Shown here in pieces: positions 1-38,739 of a stretch of DNA of 38,901 nucleotides. This DNA comes from a virus. Numbering within the stretch: the stretch's first letter is position 1; each line of letters opens with the position of its first letter. The stretch spans positions 1-38,901 of IMG/VR virus record IMGVR_UViG_3300047444_000812; one strand, 5' to 3'. Below the pieces are notes generated by a model. It was not told where the DNA came from and ran no database searches. It saw only the letters and a list, made by a program, of their open reading frames with translations. The translations under genes were made by a program, and so were the position numbers.

Positions 1-195
1 CAGGAAACGCTCGTGATCACCATTGAGCAGAGCACCGGTAGTGACCATTTCGGTGTAGAGGAGGGCGTTTTTTGAGAGTAGGCGCAGGAAGAAACGGCAG
101 TGGCGGTCGGTCCAGTCCATCATAGGTGCAACGGAGAACCGCCGAGACAGCGTAGAGCCTGTATTTTCTGGGGATGTAGCTGATTTTTGTACCAT
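1..195 (-). CDS. dusA: tRNA-dihydrouridine synthase A, 5' part (partial, phage-reconstituted start)
   Basis: DusA reduces uridine in the tRNA D-loop, using FMN. The minus-strand reading from 195 begins [13 protein letters not shown], continues into [20 protein letters not shown] and runs off the left edge. The [15 protein letters not shown] block is the N-terminal signature of the family. The first ~24 codons lie inside the prophage and replace the host codons now stranded near 38.6 kb, so the phage restores an intact reading frame. The start ATG sits inside an integrase arm-type repeat (TGTACCA at 188-194 on plus). No strong ribosome site is visible, and transcription must now start from phage DNA. 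Confidence 0.9.
109..122. other. attL core in dusA
   Basis: This is the left attachment core, GGTCCAGTCCATCA on plus, which encodes the MMDW part of DusA. It aligns with GTTCCAATCCATCA at 35804-35817 and 38600-38613 with two mismatches. The neighbouring integrase and the severed dusA start at the far end make this the left junction. The exact crossover base cannot be fixed because the phage N-terminal codons mimic the host ones. Confidence 0.8.
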
Positions 196-290
196 TTTAC
201 TCTACGTGTTTAAGGCAGGTTTTCGGGGGTAAATGGGCGTTTTTCAGAGGTCATTGGTACAATGTACCAACCCCTTTCACAATTGTACCA
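188..290. repeat. integrase arm-type repeats, left arm
   Basis: Copies of TGGTACA or its complement TGTACCA occur at 188-194, 255-261, 263-269 and 284-290. The same heptamer occurs as a pair with 11-bp register beside both right-hand cores (35728 and 35739; 38528 and 38539). Repeats shared by both arms of an attachment region are expected for tyrosine integrase arm sites. The 255-269 pair forms a palindrome over the possible upstream int start. Confidence 0.6.
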
Positions 291-297
291 GTTGACC

Positions 298-1422
298 ATG
301 GCCACGATCAGAGCACGGAAACGCACCGACGGCAGCATCAGTTACACGGCACAGATACGCCTGTTTCGCGATGGAGCGCAAGTTTACCAAGAGAGCCAGA
401 CCTTCGCCCGAAAACAGGCCGCACAGGCTTGGGTTCGAAAGCGTGAAACTGAATTGGATCAGCCTGGTGCCATCGAGCGGGCTAACCGCAAGGGCGCTAC
501 AGTCAAGGAGATGATTGACCGTTATTTGCTTGAAATGGAAAAGGTCCGGCCATTGGGCAAAACCAAGTCGGCGACGCTCAAGGCGATCAGTGAATCGTAC
601 CTGGGCAAACTCAATGATCAGGACATTAACAGCCAGCAGTTGGTGGAATATGCGCTATGGCGCATGGGCGAGGAGGGCGGGAGTGTCCAGCCCCAGACGG
701 CCGGTAACGATCTCGCCCATCTCGGTGCCGTGCTCTCGATTGCCCGGCCTGCATGGGGGTATGAGATTAACTCCCACGCAATGGCAGACGCCCGAAAGGT
801 GCTGAAAAAGCTCGGCTACAACATGAAAAGCCGTGAGCGCGACCGACGGCCTACCCTGGATGAACTGGACAAACTGCTGACGCACTTTCGAGGAATTCAA
901 GCCCGGAGGCCAACTTCGATCAACATGCTCAAGTTGACGGGATTTGCATTGTTTTCCACTCGTCGACAGGAGGAAATTACGCGTATTCAGTGGGCGGATC
1001 TGGACGAGGAAGGCCAACGGGTGTTGGTACGCGACATGAAGAACCCCGGCCAGAAGATAGGCAACGATGTTTGGTGTCATTTACCGCCAGAGGCCTTGGC
1101 CATTCTTCAGACAATGCCAAAGTCGTTACCCGAGATTTTCCCCTACAGCGCTGAATCCGTGTCCACGTCCTGGACCAGGGCTTGCAAGATCCTGGGCATC
1201 GAGGATTTGCACTTTCATGATCTGCGTCATGATGGTGTGAGTCGACTGTTTGAAATGGATTGGGATATTCCACGAGTCGCTAGCGTTTCGGGGCACAGGG
1301 ATTGGAACTCGATGCGTCGTTATACCCATCTACGTGGTCGCGGCGATATTTATGCGAATTGGAAGTGGTTGGAAAAAATCCTGCAGGCGCCCGTTAAATT
1401 GGGCGCCAGGACGTTGAGGTAG
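298..1422 (+). CDS. int: Phage integrase (tyrosine recombinase, dusA-specific)
   Basis: This enzyme catalyses site-specific integration and excision at dusA. From ATG 298 it has 374 residues. An N-terminal arm-binding region (RARKRTDGSISYTAQIR) and a core-binding domain precede the catalytic domain. Recognisable catalytic residues are R222/R223 (STRRQEE), H307 and R310 (HDLRH), H333 (SGHRDW) and the nucleophile Y342 (RRYTHL). An upstream ATG at 262 would add 12 residues and has a weak AGAGG before it; 298 is preferred because MATIRARKR is the usual start of such integrases. It lies next to attL with arm-type repeats in its leader, so autoregulation is likely. It converges with the PrtN-like gene, one base apart. 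Confidence 0.93.
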   Translation: MATIRARKRTDGSISYTAQIRLFRDGAQVYQESQTFARKQAAQAWVRKRETELDQPGAIERANRKGATVKEMIDRYLLEMEKVRPLGKTKSATLKAISESYLGKLNDQDINSQQLVEYALWRMGEEGGSVQPQTAGNDLAHLGAVLSIARPAWGYEINSHAMADARKVLKKLGYNMKSRERDRRPTLDELDKLLTHFRGIQARRPTSINMLKLTGFALFSTRRQEEITRIQWADLDEEGQRVLVRDMKNPGQKIGNDVWCHLPPEALAILQTMPKSLPEIFPYSAESVSTSWTRACKILGIEDLHFHDLRHDGVSRLFEMDWDIPRVASVSGHRDWNSMRRYTHLRGRGDIYANWKWLEKILQAPVKLGARTLR

Positions 1423-34317: not shown

Positions 34318-34421
34318 AGCGGAAAGCTCAGATCGTAAAGGGGGGAAATGAGTCATAAGTAATGAGTACTAGTATGTCTGCTATGGTAGTAAAACATTTA
34401 CGGTATGCGAGAGAGTAGTTG

Positions 34422-35687
34422 ATGCTGACGAATAGAAGTGTTGTTTCGACACCTGAAGAAATACGCCAGGCGGTTTTAGATGCTCGCAATCTACTAGGGG
34501 GAGGAAGTTGGCTGGATGATCAGTCGAAATTATTACCCGCTGAGCCATTATTGTTTTCTAGCTTGAAGATGGTTTCCGAAGGGATGCTAGTCAATAGTAT
34601 GTCGAATGATATAAAGTTAATGCATCCGATAGCCGAGGCGATTGTAGGTGGAGAGCGAATACTTGCTGAGTATGAAAAAACCGGAAAATTATTCTTTGCT
34701 AATTTTTTGCATCTGCTTAACTCTGTTAGTGATGTTGCTAAATATAAAGATCGAATTTTTGGTGTTGATGAACGAGTTAATAAGCTCAAAACTCCAAAGT
34801 GGAGGTCTACACTTTATGAACTCCTATCAGCTTGCTCTTTAGCGTCTCAGTGTGACGTAAAATTAATTACTGAAGGTAACGACCCTACTCCCGATATGGT
34901 CGCGACCGAACTCGGGTTGTTTTTTGAATGCAAGGCAAGGAGCGAGCCAGAGCAGAAAGTCACGGCATTTGTTGATGCCTTTCGGAAGCAGGTGCTTGGC
35001 GAGGTGGTCAGGCTGTCGCGGCAAGCTAGCTATGGTTTGAAGATTCTGATCGATGTTCACGATGAAAAAATTCTGGGTGAGTTGGTGCGGTTGATTGGCG
35101 ATATGCTGAGCAAACACCAGCGTTCTCTATCAATGCCCGAAGTCGACATGACAATTGAGTATTACGATCCTCAACCATATGCATTGCCGTACCCAATGCC
35201 GATGCTTTCAAGTCAGCTTTGGCAGTGGATGGTCGGCTTTGATGATTTTGATAGCTGGCATTATGTTCTGCCAGGCGGAGAGTTTGAGTTGGATAATTGC
35301 TCAAATATCATGGTAAAGAATTTCAAGCGCCCATTGCTTGTATGTGTTAGGTCAACTGTATTAAGTTCAGTGTCGGCAAAGCTTCAGACCGCAATAAAGG
35401 ATGCCTGTAAAAGACAGTTGAGGGAGCACCGTCCCGGGGTTGTCAGGTTTTTAATAAATACTCGGTTCTTTTCATTGCAGTCTACTCAGGAGTCCATCTT
35501 TGTAGAGCTACAGTCTCTTGCCGTAAAACTTGTGGAGGAATATAAGAGCAGGCTCGCCGCTGTTTATTTTGATGTTGTAATTCCGCCTAAATTTGGGGAG
35601 GTTGGAGTCAGCTACCGGCAAATTTATGCTTCAAGAAAGAGCTATGCTCAAGTATTGGATTGTCTGCCTCCAATTATATTGCTTTGA
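34422..35687 (+). CDS. AT-rich cargo protein with PD-(D/E)XK nuclease-like motif, 421 aa
   Basis: No close family is recognised. Residues 133-171 show the order E133 (LYELLSAC), P157-D158 (NDPTPDMVA) and E169-x-K171 (LFFECKAR), with hydrophobic strands before each, as in PD-(D/E)XK nucleases. The N-terminal 120 residues look helical, and the C-terminal half is mixed alpha/beta. Base composition is clearly lower in GC than the phage genes. It starts at ATG 34422 after a GAGAGAG. It lies between cos and the attachment site, the slot that holds the cytotoxin gene in phiCTX. A defence or superinfection-exclusion nuclease is a reasonable guess, not a demonstration. Confidence 0.75.
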   Translation: MLTNRSVVSTPEEIRQAVLDARNLLGGGSWLDDQSKLLPAEPLLFSSLKMVSEGMLVNSMSNDIKLMHPIAEAIVGGERILAEYEKTGKLFFANFLHLLNSVSDVAKYKDRIFGVDERVNKLKTPKWRSTLYELLSACSLASQCDVKLITEGNDPTPDMVATELGLFFECKARSEPEQKVTAFVDAFRKQVLGEVVRLSRQASYGLKILIDVHDEKILGELVRLIGDMLSKHQRSLSMPEVDMTIEYYDPQPYALPYPMPMLSSQLWQWMVGFDDFDSWHYVLPGGEFELDNCSNIMVKNFKRPLLVCVRSTVLSSVSAKLQTAIKDACKRQLREHRPGVVRFLINTRFFSLQSTQESIFVELQSLAVKLVEEYKSRLAAVYFDVVIPPKFGEVGVSYRQIYASRKSYAQVLDCLPPIILL

Positions 35688-35727
35688 TTTTAACTAAAAA
35701 TTCTGGGCGGACTTTCAGATCTCTCGG

Positions 35728-35745
35728 TGGTACATAAATGGTACA
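35728..35745. repeat. Arm-type repeat pair at the inner attR-like site
   Basis: TGGTACA at 35728-35734 and 35739-35745 are 11 bases apart. The same pair with the same spacing is found at 38528 and 38539. Confidence 0.65.
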
Positions 35746-35803
35746 GGAACATCTAGGCTGTATGGAGAACCCTTATTTATAAGGGGGGGGCTGCGATCTA
35801 GTA

Positions 35804-35817
35804 GTTCCAATCCATCA
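35804..35817. other. Inner attachment core (attR-like)
   Basis: GTTCCAATCCATCA is identical to the outer core at 38600-38613. An AT-rich palindrome (CCCTTATTTATAAGGG, 35770-35785) lies between the arm pair and the core, as at the outer site. On the minus strand, sequence beyond the core still reads AFSVMDWNY, a decayed dusA start lacking three codons of FSVAPMMDW. This is what the old left junction of a second element would look like. Confidence 0.65.
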
Positions 35818-35873
35818 CCGAGAAAGCTGGTGATTTTAGGTCGTGCCCGGCAGCAAGCGATAGCCGATCGCAG

Positions 35874-36083
35874 TCACTCGGGCGTCATTAGCACTGCGAG
35901 AGTCATTTTGATGAACTCTTCGTTTCGGTCGATTGCAACCAGGGCACCACGAACGTTATTGGCGACATCCCCCGACCCGCGCTGCTCGACCCAAAGAGTG
36001 AGCTCCATGATTGCGGCTTCCAGGGCGAGCTGGTTTTCGTTGAGCTTGTACAGCAGGGAAGGGAGTAGGTCTGAATTTGGCAT
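35874..36083 (-). CDS. Conserved-looking small protein, 69 aa
   Basis: The product begins MPNSDLLPSLLYKLNENQLA and contains LWVEQRGSGDVANNVRGALV. ATG 36083 has GGAGG seven bases upstream; the longer reading from 36224 lacks support. It is an acidic, helical protein of a kind I have met repeatedly in Pseudomonas prophage and island ends. The function is unknown. It is the first gene of the passenger segment between the two attR-like sites. Confidence 0.7.
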   Translation of the reverse strand: MPNSDLLPSLLYKLNENQLALEAAIMELTLWVEQRGSGDVANNVRGALVAIDRNEEFIKMTLAVLMTPE

Positions 36084-36652
36084 CGCATTTCCTCCGTGAG
36101 CAGGGAAGCGTAGCAGCTTCAACACTTCATGAGAGGGATGAAGTCCGGTTCTAATTCCAGGCGTATTGAACCGCATCGACAGTGCTCGAGATTGGAGCCG
36201 AAAACGGTTGCTTAAAATTTGCATTTGCTATGGAGGATGAGGGAGAAGTGGCTTTTCGTTGTGGTCGACCGGCAGTAGTCGACCCGTTGCGGTCATTGGT
36301 GTTGCGGCTAATGATCCGAATCTCATGCCACGACGCCTTGGTCACAGATCATGTTTTTTCTAGCCGAGGTGAATGTTATATCAAAAAGATGCGGAAATAA
36401 TTGCATCATCGGCACATCCAGCGCTAAACGCTAGAAAAGATAAAGCCAACACTGGTGAGTGCTGCATACAGCAATTTAGAATAAACATTATTTAATTAAT
36501 TTCAAATGGTTATTGAAAAATTTACATATTAATTTTATTTTTGTGATGGCGGTCTACACTGGGTTGTAAAGATCGGAAGAGAAAGGTGTCAGCTTTAGTA
36601 AGTGTAATATTGAATTTTTAATGTGAACGTGTCGATCAATGTAGGGGGGCAC
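36084..36652. other. Region without a supported gene
   Basis: Overlapping plus (36182-36400) and minus (36151-36345) frames exist, but neither has a ribosome site or recognisable content. From about 36410 the sequence becomes very AT-rich and probably holds the promoter of the 36653 gene. Confidence 0.5.
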
Positions 36653-37060
36653 ATGAAAATCGGCACGTTAAAAAGCGTTTTGTCGGTGTGTATAAGACTA
36701 AGTCGTAATGCCGTTTATGCATTTTTTGTCATCGTGTATGGAATGTCGCTCCTAACTGCACCTGTGCTAGCAGATACAGTCGACCTGGAATTTTCCTATG
36801 GCTTTCCTTCTTTTGGAGGAGGACCTGTTGGGTGCAGTATAATGATGGATAGAGAAGCCTGTACGTCCGAGCCGTTGACTATTATCCCAGACGTTGATGT
36901 AGAAGTTTTAGCGGGATTTGCTGAGGTGAAATACTCTCAAATTAGGCCGCCAAATTGTGTTGTTATTACAGTGCGCCTTTGGGTTGATCATAAAGGATAC
37001 GAAGGGCGTGAGTGTCTGGCTCCATTTGCACATGCAATCGCTCATGTCAAAATCCCATAA
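36653..37060 (+). CDS. Small secreted protein with signal peptide, 135 aa
   Basis: The ATG at 36653 follows AGGGGGG. A long signal peptide with a basic start (MKIGTLKSVLSVCIRLSRNA), a hydrophobic core and a VLA|D cleavage site after residue 40 is clear. The mature part is about 95 residues with four cysteines (GCSIMMDREAC, PPNCVV, GRECL) that could form two disulfides. It would be periplasmic or exported. It is AT-rich and unlike the phage genes. No family is recognised. It precedes the Gly-rich gene by 128 bases on the same strand. Confidence 0.7.
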   Translation: MKIGTLKSVLSVCIRLSRNAVYAFFVIVYGMSLLTAPVLADTVDLEFSYGFPSFGGGPVGCSIMMDREACTSEPLTIIPDVDVEVLAGFAEVKYSQIRPPNCVVITVRLWVDHKGYEGRECLAPFAHAIAHVKIP

Positions 37061-37188
37061 AAAACTGCAAAGGTAAAGTGTGTGTTGTAGATGTTGGTGC
37101 TTGCTGATGTTTTGCTTGGTTCGTCGGTTTGAGTTTCAATTTGATTTCATTCAAATGGCATCATTCTTAAGTGTTTGAGGGCGGTGAA

Positions 37189-38253
37189 ATGAATTTTTAT
37201 AGCGATGAGATTCTGGTCGAGCCAATATTAAATTATGGCGTTGCAACTAAAAATATCGATTTGGTTGCGGGGCCGCCGTCAATTCCCCAAGATGTCCTTA
37301 CTGCTGTAAAGGATGCACCATTAACAAAATTTGGGGAGACAATTGATGAAAATCCCAAATCTTATTCAGCGCAAATACTTAAGTTTGAGTGGTTAACAAT
37401 AAATGCACGTGGAAGACTCGTTCTAACAAACTTCGCTTTACCTTGGATTGCAATCGTTGCAAAAAATATAAGTATTGAGAATGCTCCGAATTTGTCGGAA
37501 AAAGCAATAATCATGCGTGCGTCGGATGCAGATTTAGCTCGTTATCTGAATGGGCCGGATCGAGCGCCTTATCCAACAAGAGCACGCGATGGGGGCTATG
37601 ATACAGGAGAGGCCGGTAACTCAGGTGCTGAAGGTGTATGGGGGGGGGATGGCTATACAGCACATACACCAAAAATCTACGTTTTTTTTGAAAACATTGA
37701 TGTTGCAACTCAAGATCCACCTGCGGGTGGAGTGCACATTCGATTTGAGGTTGATGGACCTAAGGGGGGAGACGGTGGAAATGGTGGAAATGGACAAGAC
37801 GGAGGGGTCGGCGGCCGCGGAACCCCTTCTTCATGTGACCAAGTGACATTTCCCATCAATACGTGCACTTCGTGCAAATCTGGTCCCGGAGATGGCGGTC
37901 GCGGAGGGGACGGAGGGATAGGCGGTCGCGGGGGGGCAGCAGCACCGGGAGGAAATGCCGCTGACGTATGGTTCATCGGTCCTCAAACTAGTTTGGGAAA
38001 AACGGGATATTTCGGAGTATCACAAGCAGGTGGAAAGCCTGGTAGGCCAGGCGTCGGAGGAGGTCCTGGTAATCCAGGTAGTGGCGGCGGCGGAGGATAT
38101 CAGTGTAAATGTTGTCCTAATGGCGGGGGATCGCATGGGCCAGGTGTAGGTCCTAATCCTCCGACCCGTGGTTTGGGTCCTGTTTCTAATGTTCGTGGTG
38201 TTGATGGAGATATTTTCCGAATAGTGCGAGATAACTCCGACTTATGGCCCTGA
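37189..38253 (+). CDS. Collagen-like glycine-rich protein, 354 aa
   Basis: The start ATG 37189 has GAGG upstream; a GTG at 37171 is an alternative. Residues 1-185 are an unfamiliar beta-rich domain with no signal peptide. From residue 190 there are Gly-rich triplet-like tracts (GGDGGNGGNGQDGG, DGGRGGDGGIGGRGG, GRPGVGGGPGNPGSGGGGG) interrupted by Cys motifs (C216, C226-x2-C229, C306-x-CC). The tracts can form collagen or polyglycine helices. It may interact with the secreted partner upstream. It is unlike any phage structural gene here and is probably cargo. Confidence 0.7.
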   Translation: MNFYSDEILVEPILNYGVATKNIDLVAGPPSIPQDVLTAVKDAPLTKFGETIDENPKSYSAQILKFEWLTINARGRLVLTNFALPWIAIVAKNISIENAPNLSEKAIIMRASDADLARYLNGPDRAPYPTRARDGGYDTGEAGNSGAEGVWGGDGYTAHTPKIYVFFENIDVATQDPPAGGVHIRFEVDGPKGGDGGNGGNGQDGGVGGRGTPSSCDQVTFPINTCTSCKSGPGDGGRGGDGGIGGRGGAAAPGGNAADVWFIGPQTSLGKTGYFGVSQAGGKPGRPGVGGGPGNPGSGGGGGYQCKCCPNGGGSHGPGVGPNPPTRGLGPVSNVRGVDGDIFRIVRDNSDLWP

Positions 38254-38527
38254 GCAGTAAGTAAGACGAATATCGAACGCGGCCTTCAACGATGATTACG
38301 GAAGGCTTTTCCAGGTTTCCGCGAATTTCGTCGGCTATTTGAAGTGCCGCCCAAGCAAGACAGGTGGTGTTGCCCGGGAAAATTAGCTGCACTGATGCCC
38401 GCTAGAGCGGTACATGACCGCCAGAGCGATAGCTAGTTTATTGCGTGTCAATTGTCCGCTTTTGGCCGTTATCTACCGAATGTAAACGCAGTTTGCCGTA
38501 GAGAAAGGGGCAGTTGAGAGAGTGTAG
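38254..38527. other. Region without a supported gene
   Basis: A minus frame from GTG 38392 to 38186 is open but lacks a ribosome site and overlaps the end of the Gly-rich gene. Nothing else is recognised before the arm-type repeats. Confidence 0.5.
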
Positions 38528-38545
38528 TGGTACACGATTGGTACA
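38528..38545. repeat. Arm-type repeat pair at the outer attR
   Basis: TGGTACA at 38528-38534 and 38539-38545 has the same spacing as the inner pair. An AT-rich palindrome, CCCTTTATTTTAAAGGG (38569-38585), lies between this pair and the core. Confidence 0.65.
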
Positions 38546-38593
38546 GGTGAAATCGAAGATTGCTGCAACCCTTTATTTTAAAGGGGCCTGTCG

Positions 38594-38674
38594 CTAATCG
38601 TTCCAATCCATCATCGGGGCGACGGAAAAGCGGCGGGAAAGCGGGGCGGGGGTCGGTGCGGTCATCAGGGGCAT
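38594..38674 (-). pseudogene. dusA: Severed original 5' end of dusA
   Basis: The minus strand from ATG 38674 reads [20 protein letters not shown], then MMDWND and a stop at 38594. These are the native first codons of DusA, cut off by the insertion. The native promoter region lies to the right. The [13 protein letters not shown] stretch matches the phage-supplied version at 1-195 in protein, but with many synonymous changes. ATG 38665 is an alternative start. Confidence 0.88.
38600..38613. other. Outer attR core
   Basis: GTTCCAATCCATCA adjoins genuine dusA coding sequence on its right and phage-type sequence with arm repeats on its left, so it is the chromosomal right junction. Confidence 0.8.
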
Positions 38675-38739
38675 TGGAGTTCTGGGATGGGTGAGGCTGA
38701 GGGGGTGTGAGTTTATCAGGAATGGAAGTGGAGAGGGCC

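Follow-up and report, generated by a model that had tools for sequence, protein, structure and literature searches.

The window analysed here (38,901 bases; IMG/VR provirus record IMGVR_UViG_3300047444_000812) carries a Pseudomonas prophage integrated in dusA and, at the right end of this prophage, a unit without an integrase gene that lies between two tandem right attachment (attR)-type sites. From one core end to the other (35818–38613, plus strand), the unit is 2796 bp long. It is probably a hitch-hiker in cis, similar to a cis-mobilizable element (CIME), which would leave together with the prophage via the outer attR, and it belongs to a family of such units at dusA.

The window has the standard layout of a prophage in dusA as set out in the searched passages of Farrugia et al. 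(2015; PMC4482086), in which prophages and islands with dusA-associated integrases (DAI) restore dusA and carry the integrase gene beside the left attachment site (attL). The 5' part of the dusA body lies left of the prophage (1–129, minus strand, by translation) and includes the attL core (109–122). Here the dusA body is fused to an N-terminus that comes from the element and runs on to an ATG at about 196 in the minus-strand translation. The integrase that the original prediction had assigned to the prophage was confirmed and is dusA-specific, a dusA-associated tyrosine integrase of 386 aa (262–1422, plus strand), which matched Pfam PF00589 (E 1.2e-16) and a PHROG integrase family and had hundreds of relatives among viral contigs. 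The left-arm integrase sites (TGGTACA/TGTACCA) are located at 188–194, 255–261, 263–269 and 284–290, the same positions as in about 25 related left ends. At the other end, the original chromosomal N-terminal codons of dusA were identified by translation (38603–38665, minus strand), and the flank beyond this dusA start matched other dusA loci, being common to L007, L009 and L111.

Anatomy of the two attachment sites and the unit ends

Both predicted attR-like sites were found with all their parts. The inner site (35728–35817, plus strand, 90 bp) consists of two TGGTACA arms at 35728 and 35739, the palindrome CCCTTATTTATAAGGG (35770–35785) and a 14-bp core (35804–35817). The outer attR (38528–38613, plus strand, 86 bp) has its arms at 38528 and 38539, the palindrome CCCTTTATTTTAAAGGG at 38569–38585 and its core at 38600–38613. 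The arms of both sites are in 11-bp register, and the core, GTTCCAATCCATCA, is identical in the two. In the window, a composite pattern of these parts had two matches; in 100 shuffles it had none. As predicted, no integrase was found in 35818–38613, as judged by translation and by Pfam and PHROG searches. The minus strand right of the outer core reads the intact start of dusA; beyond the inner core on that side, the same strand gives PAFSVMDW, without the A-P-M codons.

The R-type site (right arm, R, with core) was present in 86 of 398 Pseudomonas genomes, whereas a reversed control pattern was present in none. Among the distinct R sites of the sampled loci with measurable spacing, 117 of 124 showed the 86-bp layout, and the outer site, with its arms and core of the dusA type, conforms to it.

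The sequence right of the inner core proved to be a conserved left end, which we designated Lf. In the window it occupies 35807–35861 (plus strand; hidden Markov model score 61.5; alignment of 24 copies) and runs as core + CACCGAGAAAGCTGGTGATTTTAGGTCG. Its sequence, core + CACCGAAAAGGCTGATG and onward, reads AFSVMDW, and the Lf consensus on the dusA strand is GHERKTSAFSVMDW. A pattern search with core + CACNGARAARGC detected it in 8 viral contigs and 18 of the 398 Pseudomonas genomes; core and Lf stood directly behind an R arm in 14 of these 398 genomes and in further viral contigs. We built profiles of Lf and of the R arm and mapped them onto the loci. Nearly every core-Lf copy had an R arm before it at fixed spacing. 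In none of the matches in the 398 genomes did the dusA body directly adjoin the copy on the left, as is expected because a left end without the A-P-M codons does not restore DusA; this would fit an Lf that is tolerated only behind another element. The AFSVMDW reading had been taken in the original prediction for a decayed dusA start. The reading itself stands, but it is conserved in many units and is no one-off decay; random decay of the window's own dusA copy was rejected, since the sequence recurs.

Arm sites further distinguished unit ends from prophage ends. About 25 integrase-bearing dusA left ends carried GTACCA/TGGTAC at +67, +133, +142 and +163 relative to the core; in a few of them, one or two of these sites were missing. 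The left ends of 12 of 13 units had no arm site within 300 bp, and the remaining one had a single site; the left end of the window unit has none, compared with four in dusA integrative elements. The left junction of the window unit has an R arm from its neighbour, no left arm and abnormal inner spacing, and the right attR-type site is intact.

Recurrence, cargo and partner switching

Units of the same plan recurred at other dusA loci. In G182 the order is dusA, integrase, a 37.8-kb prophage, an R/Lf junction, 1.97 kb, R and the dusA 5' end. A 38.2-kb prophage with a diverged Lf is followed by a 2.08-kb unit in G204, and a 38.6-kb prophage by a 2.3-kb unit in G244; in both genomes the outer R adjoins sequence other than the usual dusA start. 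The prophage of G003 is closely related to that of the window and is followed by a 0.72-kb unit and then by a further integrase element. Other units stand beside a degenerate or absent integrase element, as in G267, where no dusA-type integrase was found, and in G216, where the integrase is truncated.

Unit sizes ranged from 0.54 to 5.3 kb, with cargo of mostly one or two genes, and no unit contained a match to a dusA-type integrase. The cargo included a NUDIX gene (G003), a SocA/Panacea-type antitoxin with a neighbour (G244), an HNH endonuclease (G267), an SMI1-like gene (G226), SDR plus TPR genes (G371) and an APH-like kinase (G216 contig 10). A further unit (L218, G216:C4, 6079–8448) carried a PARIS AriAB fusion of 538 aa (PADLOC, E 7e-142) beside a truncated integrase remnant.

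Tandem dusA prophages or islands are common. At about ten of the sampled R sites (L223, L231, L232, L238, L242, L264, L269, L276, L278 and L185), a further dusA element follows directly with its left end and integrase. At L166, L209 and L253 another type of flank, ending in ..VPMMDW and near DUF6124-like genes, stood right of the outer R; it may be the left end of another unit or island.

Comparison of the junctions showed that the partners on the two sides of the core had changed. Four genomes share a right-end block (TPR gene, R and core) with G371 at 93–97% identity; the match extends over about 725 bp in G204, G182 and G313 and over 433 bp in G186. This identity stopped at the core, which is followed by the dusA 5' end in G371 and by Lf in G204, G182, G313 and G186. 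Homologous left sides joined to unrelated right sides, one of which was Lf, were also seen in L143/L228, in L115 and L146/L252, and in L148/L223. For the window unit, about 410–480 bp from the core onward were 77–89% identical to units in G001, L166 and L111, and the DNA left of the core differed between the window and these units. Since the homology switch falls at the core, these junctions with switched partners were made by site-specific recombination, as judged from the alignments.

The window unit itself contains small open reading frames (ORFs) only, with no match to an integrase or relaxase family in Pfam or PHROG. The first ORF (35874–36083, minus strand, 69 aa) has no Pfam match; it is 97% identical to its homolog in L007, 91% in L166 and 88% in G001. 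Members of its family are common near the right att site in many related dusA prophages. The second, of 145 aa (36623–37060, plus strand), has a hydrophobic N-terminus that is possibly a signal peptide. The third, of 360 aa (37171–38253, plus strand), has a long glycine-rich C-terminal half of GGxGGxGG type; its structure, predicted without an alignment, had a mean confidence (pLDDT) of 35 and was uninterpretable. Pfam, PHROG and PADLOC returned nothing usable for these two cargo ORFs, and relatives of the 360-aa protein were sought in the genomes and viral contigs without a match. An Rfam scan of 34.0–38.9 kb gave no match, and a search of a phage collection gave two short matches, both in the region of the 69-aa ORF. 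The different base composition attributed to the segment does not separate it from the prophage: it is AT-rich (47% GC), yet the cargo of the prophage directly adjoining the inner site on its left has 44–46% GC. This adjoining cargo includes a 422-aa gene without a family match (34419–35687, plus strand) that stops 41 bp before the inner site. Its PD...ExK-like motif, TPDMVATELGLFFECKA, is possibly that of a nuclease.

Proposed exchange and alternative explanations

In lambda-type recombination, normal excision pairs attL, bearing the left arm, with attR, bearing the right arm. As the units have no left-arm sites, only attL with the inner site and attL with the outer site would form such normal pairs; on that basis, a reaction of the inner with the outer site, which would be of attR x attR type, is not expected. 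We propose the following plan for a unit: half a core with the conserved left end lacking arm sites, one or two cargo genes, and a right arm with core, the whole placed behind an integrase-bearing dusA prophage. If the prophage integrase paired attL (about 110) with the inner attR, 35.7 kb would leave and the unit would stay; if it paired attL with the outer attR, 38.5 kb would leave, unit included. The latter would be a plausible genome size because the L007 prophage with its fused unit DNA is 38.3 kb long, compared with 38.5 kb for the window's prophage plus unit. The core and left end of a unit that stayed would serve the next dusA element as a half-site to land in, and units would thereby change phage partners at the core. 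The anatomy, the recurrence and the switching of partners at the core are shown by the sequences; we infer that the integrase of the present prophage is the catalyst and that the unit departs in company with the prophage, not by itself.

Several observations weigh against this reading. R-core-Lf junctions also occur far from dusA, at 4.35 Mb in G204 and, in three copies and both orientations, at 2.40–2.41 Mb in G182, and a hitch-hiker in cis gives no explanation for them. Also, the inner site is the sole 90-bp layout among the 124 measurable R sites, 4 bp over the normal length, and with this stretch it may be inactive or impaired. The two cargo ORFs of 145 and 360 aa are without relatives elsewhere in the data searched. 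Finally, L007, which is 87% identical to the window over the left 6.7 kb, has the homolog of the unit's first ORF and a homologous right end without an inner site, so that a portion of the unit can be integral to a phage.

The junctions away from dusA sit in an interrupted intergenic palindrome beside TPR, ankyrin or DUF6124-like genes, which were named by eye. Their origin from inversions in every case was rejected, as G204 has an intact prophage with integrase at dusA plus a TPR unit away from dusA. A TPR-gene unit, 93–97% identical in five genomes (L142, L145, L148, L155 and L157), occurs in varied neighbourhoods off the dusA body and ends at the core. In two other genomes the dusA body and the dusA 5' end with the outer attR lie megabases apart (1.75 and 4.74 Mb in G371; 2.00 and 4.85 Mb in G226), which suggests inversions of the chromosome that were broken within the dusA island; such inversions may account for the off-dusA copies in these two genomes. 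In the window, a G tract at 35780–35795 makes up the extra 4 bp of the inner site; slippage or an assembly error is possible.

The original prediction had favoured independent mobility, in which the unit would be a minimal satellite that excises alone by recombination of the inner with the outer site and re-integrates using the prophage integrase in trans. The R arms and the same core at both unit ends speak for this, as do the dispersed R-core-Lf junctions, which have the form of a unit circle, and integrase-less islands mobilized in trans are known (PMC3191183). We nevertheless consider it unlikely: the unit lacks left-arm sites, the reaction would be of attR x attR type, the inner site is abnormally spaced, and the cargo DNA (36300–38460), part of the segment that the prediction had proposed to search for in Pseudomonas genomes, gave only short partial matches in the 398 Pseudomonas genomes and no second copy of the unit.

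It is similarly improbable that the unit is a fossil, a right end that remained from an older dusA prophage before a newer one landed in front of it, with the segment now fixed. Its first gene and right end do resemble the right end of the L007 prophage, and the units in G267 and G216 are kept beside degenerate, integrase-poor remnants. Random deletion, however, would not produce the same conserved left end at dozens of sites whose cargo is unrelated, and the exchange of partners at the core shows repeated site-specific events.

A segment that belongs to the phage genome, with the inner site as a non-functional internal repeat, is very unlikely. Constant integral occurrence in related prophages, the pattern named in the original prediction as speaking against a passenger, was seen in part: in L007 the first gene and the right end are contiguous with the prophage and no inner site is present. 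The homology between L007 and the window starts again at 35862, adjacent to the Lf boundary, where L007 may retain a degenerate Lf; G344 has a degenerate core and no R. Against an integral segment, the viral contig L010 contains a phage attP, in the order 69-aa ORF, R, core and left end, without any unit, G003 has a different unit here in the same phage family, and in G182 and G244 the junction is preceded by the phage's own last gene and R. The joined attP of L010 (9386–9862) is circularly permuted relative to the window, and this contig is probably a free or circular form of the phage. The simplest interpretation of these comparisons is that a unit can stay behind, travel with the phage or in the end become fused with it.

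That Lf is a piece of a dispersed Pseudomonas intergenic repeat with a core-like word by chance, and no mobile-element end, is scarcely credible: part of it resembles a common intergenic palindrome arm and inverted arms flank the ectopic copies, but an R arm stands at fixed spacing before nearly every core-Lf copy and homology switches at the core.

Relation to known elements and biological meaning

The hitch-hiker in cis that we favour shares with DAI elements the integration point in the dusA 5' end, as the searched passages of PMC4482086 describe it, and has a right arm and core of the dusA type; it differs in having no integrase and no left-arm sites and in not restoring the DusA N-terminus. 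Neither tandem arrays nor units lacking an integrase come up in those passages. CIMEs and tandem accretion have been described (Pavlovic, 2004 and Bellanger, 2011, as cited in the part of PMC5704250 consulted), as have the ssrA islands of Dehalococcoides (PMC3146451). Like a CIME, the unit is an integrase-less segment between att sites, without integration or transfer genes, with att sites of its neighbour's specificity and in tandem with an autonomous element; CIMEs are co-mobilized in cis. They belong to systems of integrative and conjugative or integrative and mobilizable elements and are, in the portion of the source consulted, decay products with attL and attR, whereas the dusA units are phage-associated, 0.5–5 kb in size and have a conserved one-armed left end and unrelated cargo.

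Tandem dusA islands of Vibrio (PMC8409611) likewise comprise two elements in dusA, but both have integrases. The microcin H47 island of Escherichia coli (PMC3191183) is likewise small, integrase-less and flanked by direct repeats; its recombinase is supplied by the host and independent excision was shown, and both recombinase and site differ from those of the dusA units. Unlike phage satellites of the phage-inducible chromosomal island (PICI) or P4 type, the unit has no gene families for regulation or packaging hijack of the satellite type among its ORFs. A conserved family of integrase-less dusA units was not found described in the literature searched, outside subscription papers. Tandem accretion is already known; the phage-linked, one-armed unit family is a new form of it.

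Integron gene cassettes each combine a single gene with a recombination site, and the integrase that exchanges them comes from elsewhere. Compared with these cassettes and their single attC site, the dusA unit is two-ended and has a phage-type arm site. As a tentative possibility, the Pseudomonas dusA phages and their integrases may run a cassette system of one-armed, integrase-less single-gene units, including PARIS and toxin-antitoxin genes, swapped at the att core. Such swapping, which we put forward equally tentatively, might link prophages with the dusA locus and with sites dispersed over the chromosome, an integron parallel built on phage attachment sites.

If units do hitch-hike in cis, prophage attachment sites would be loading docks at which cargo genes of 0.5–2.5 kb that bear suitable ends are gained or left by the choice of attR, and prophage boundaries called from a single attR would be ambiguous. 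It would also provide a simple, testable exchange route for accessory genes carried by phages, defence genes like the PARIS fusion of one unit among them. The dusA units look like a vehicle for single genes, some of them antiviral, that travel along with dusA viruses.

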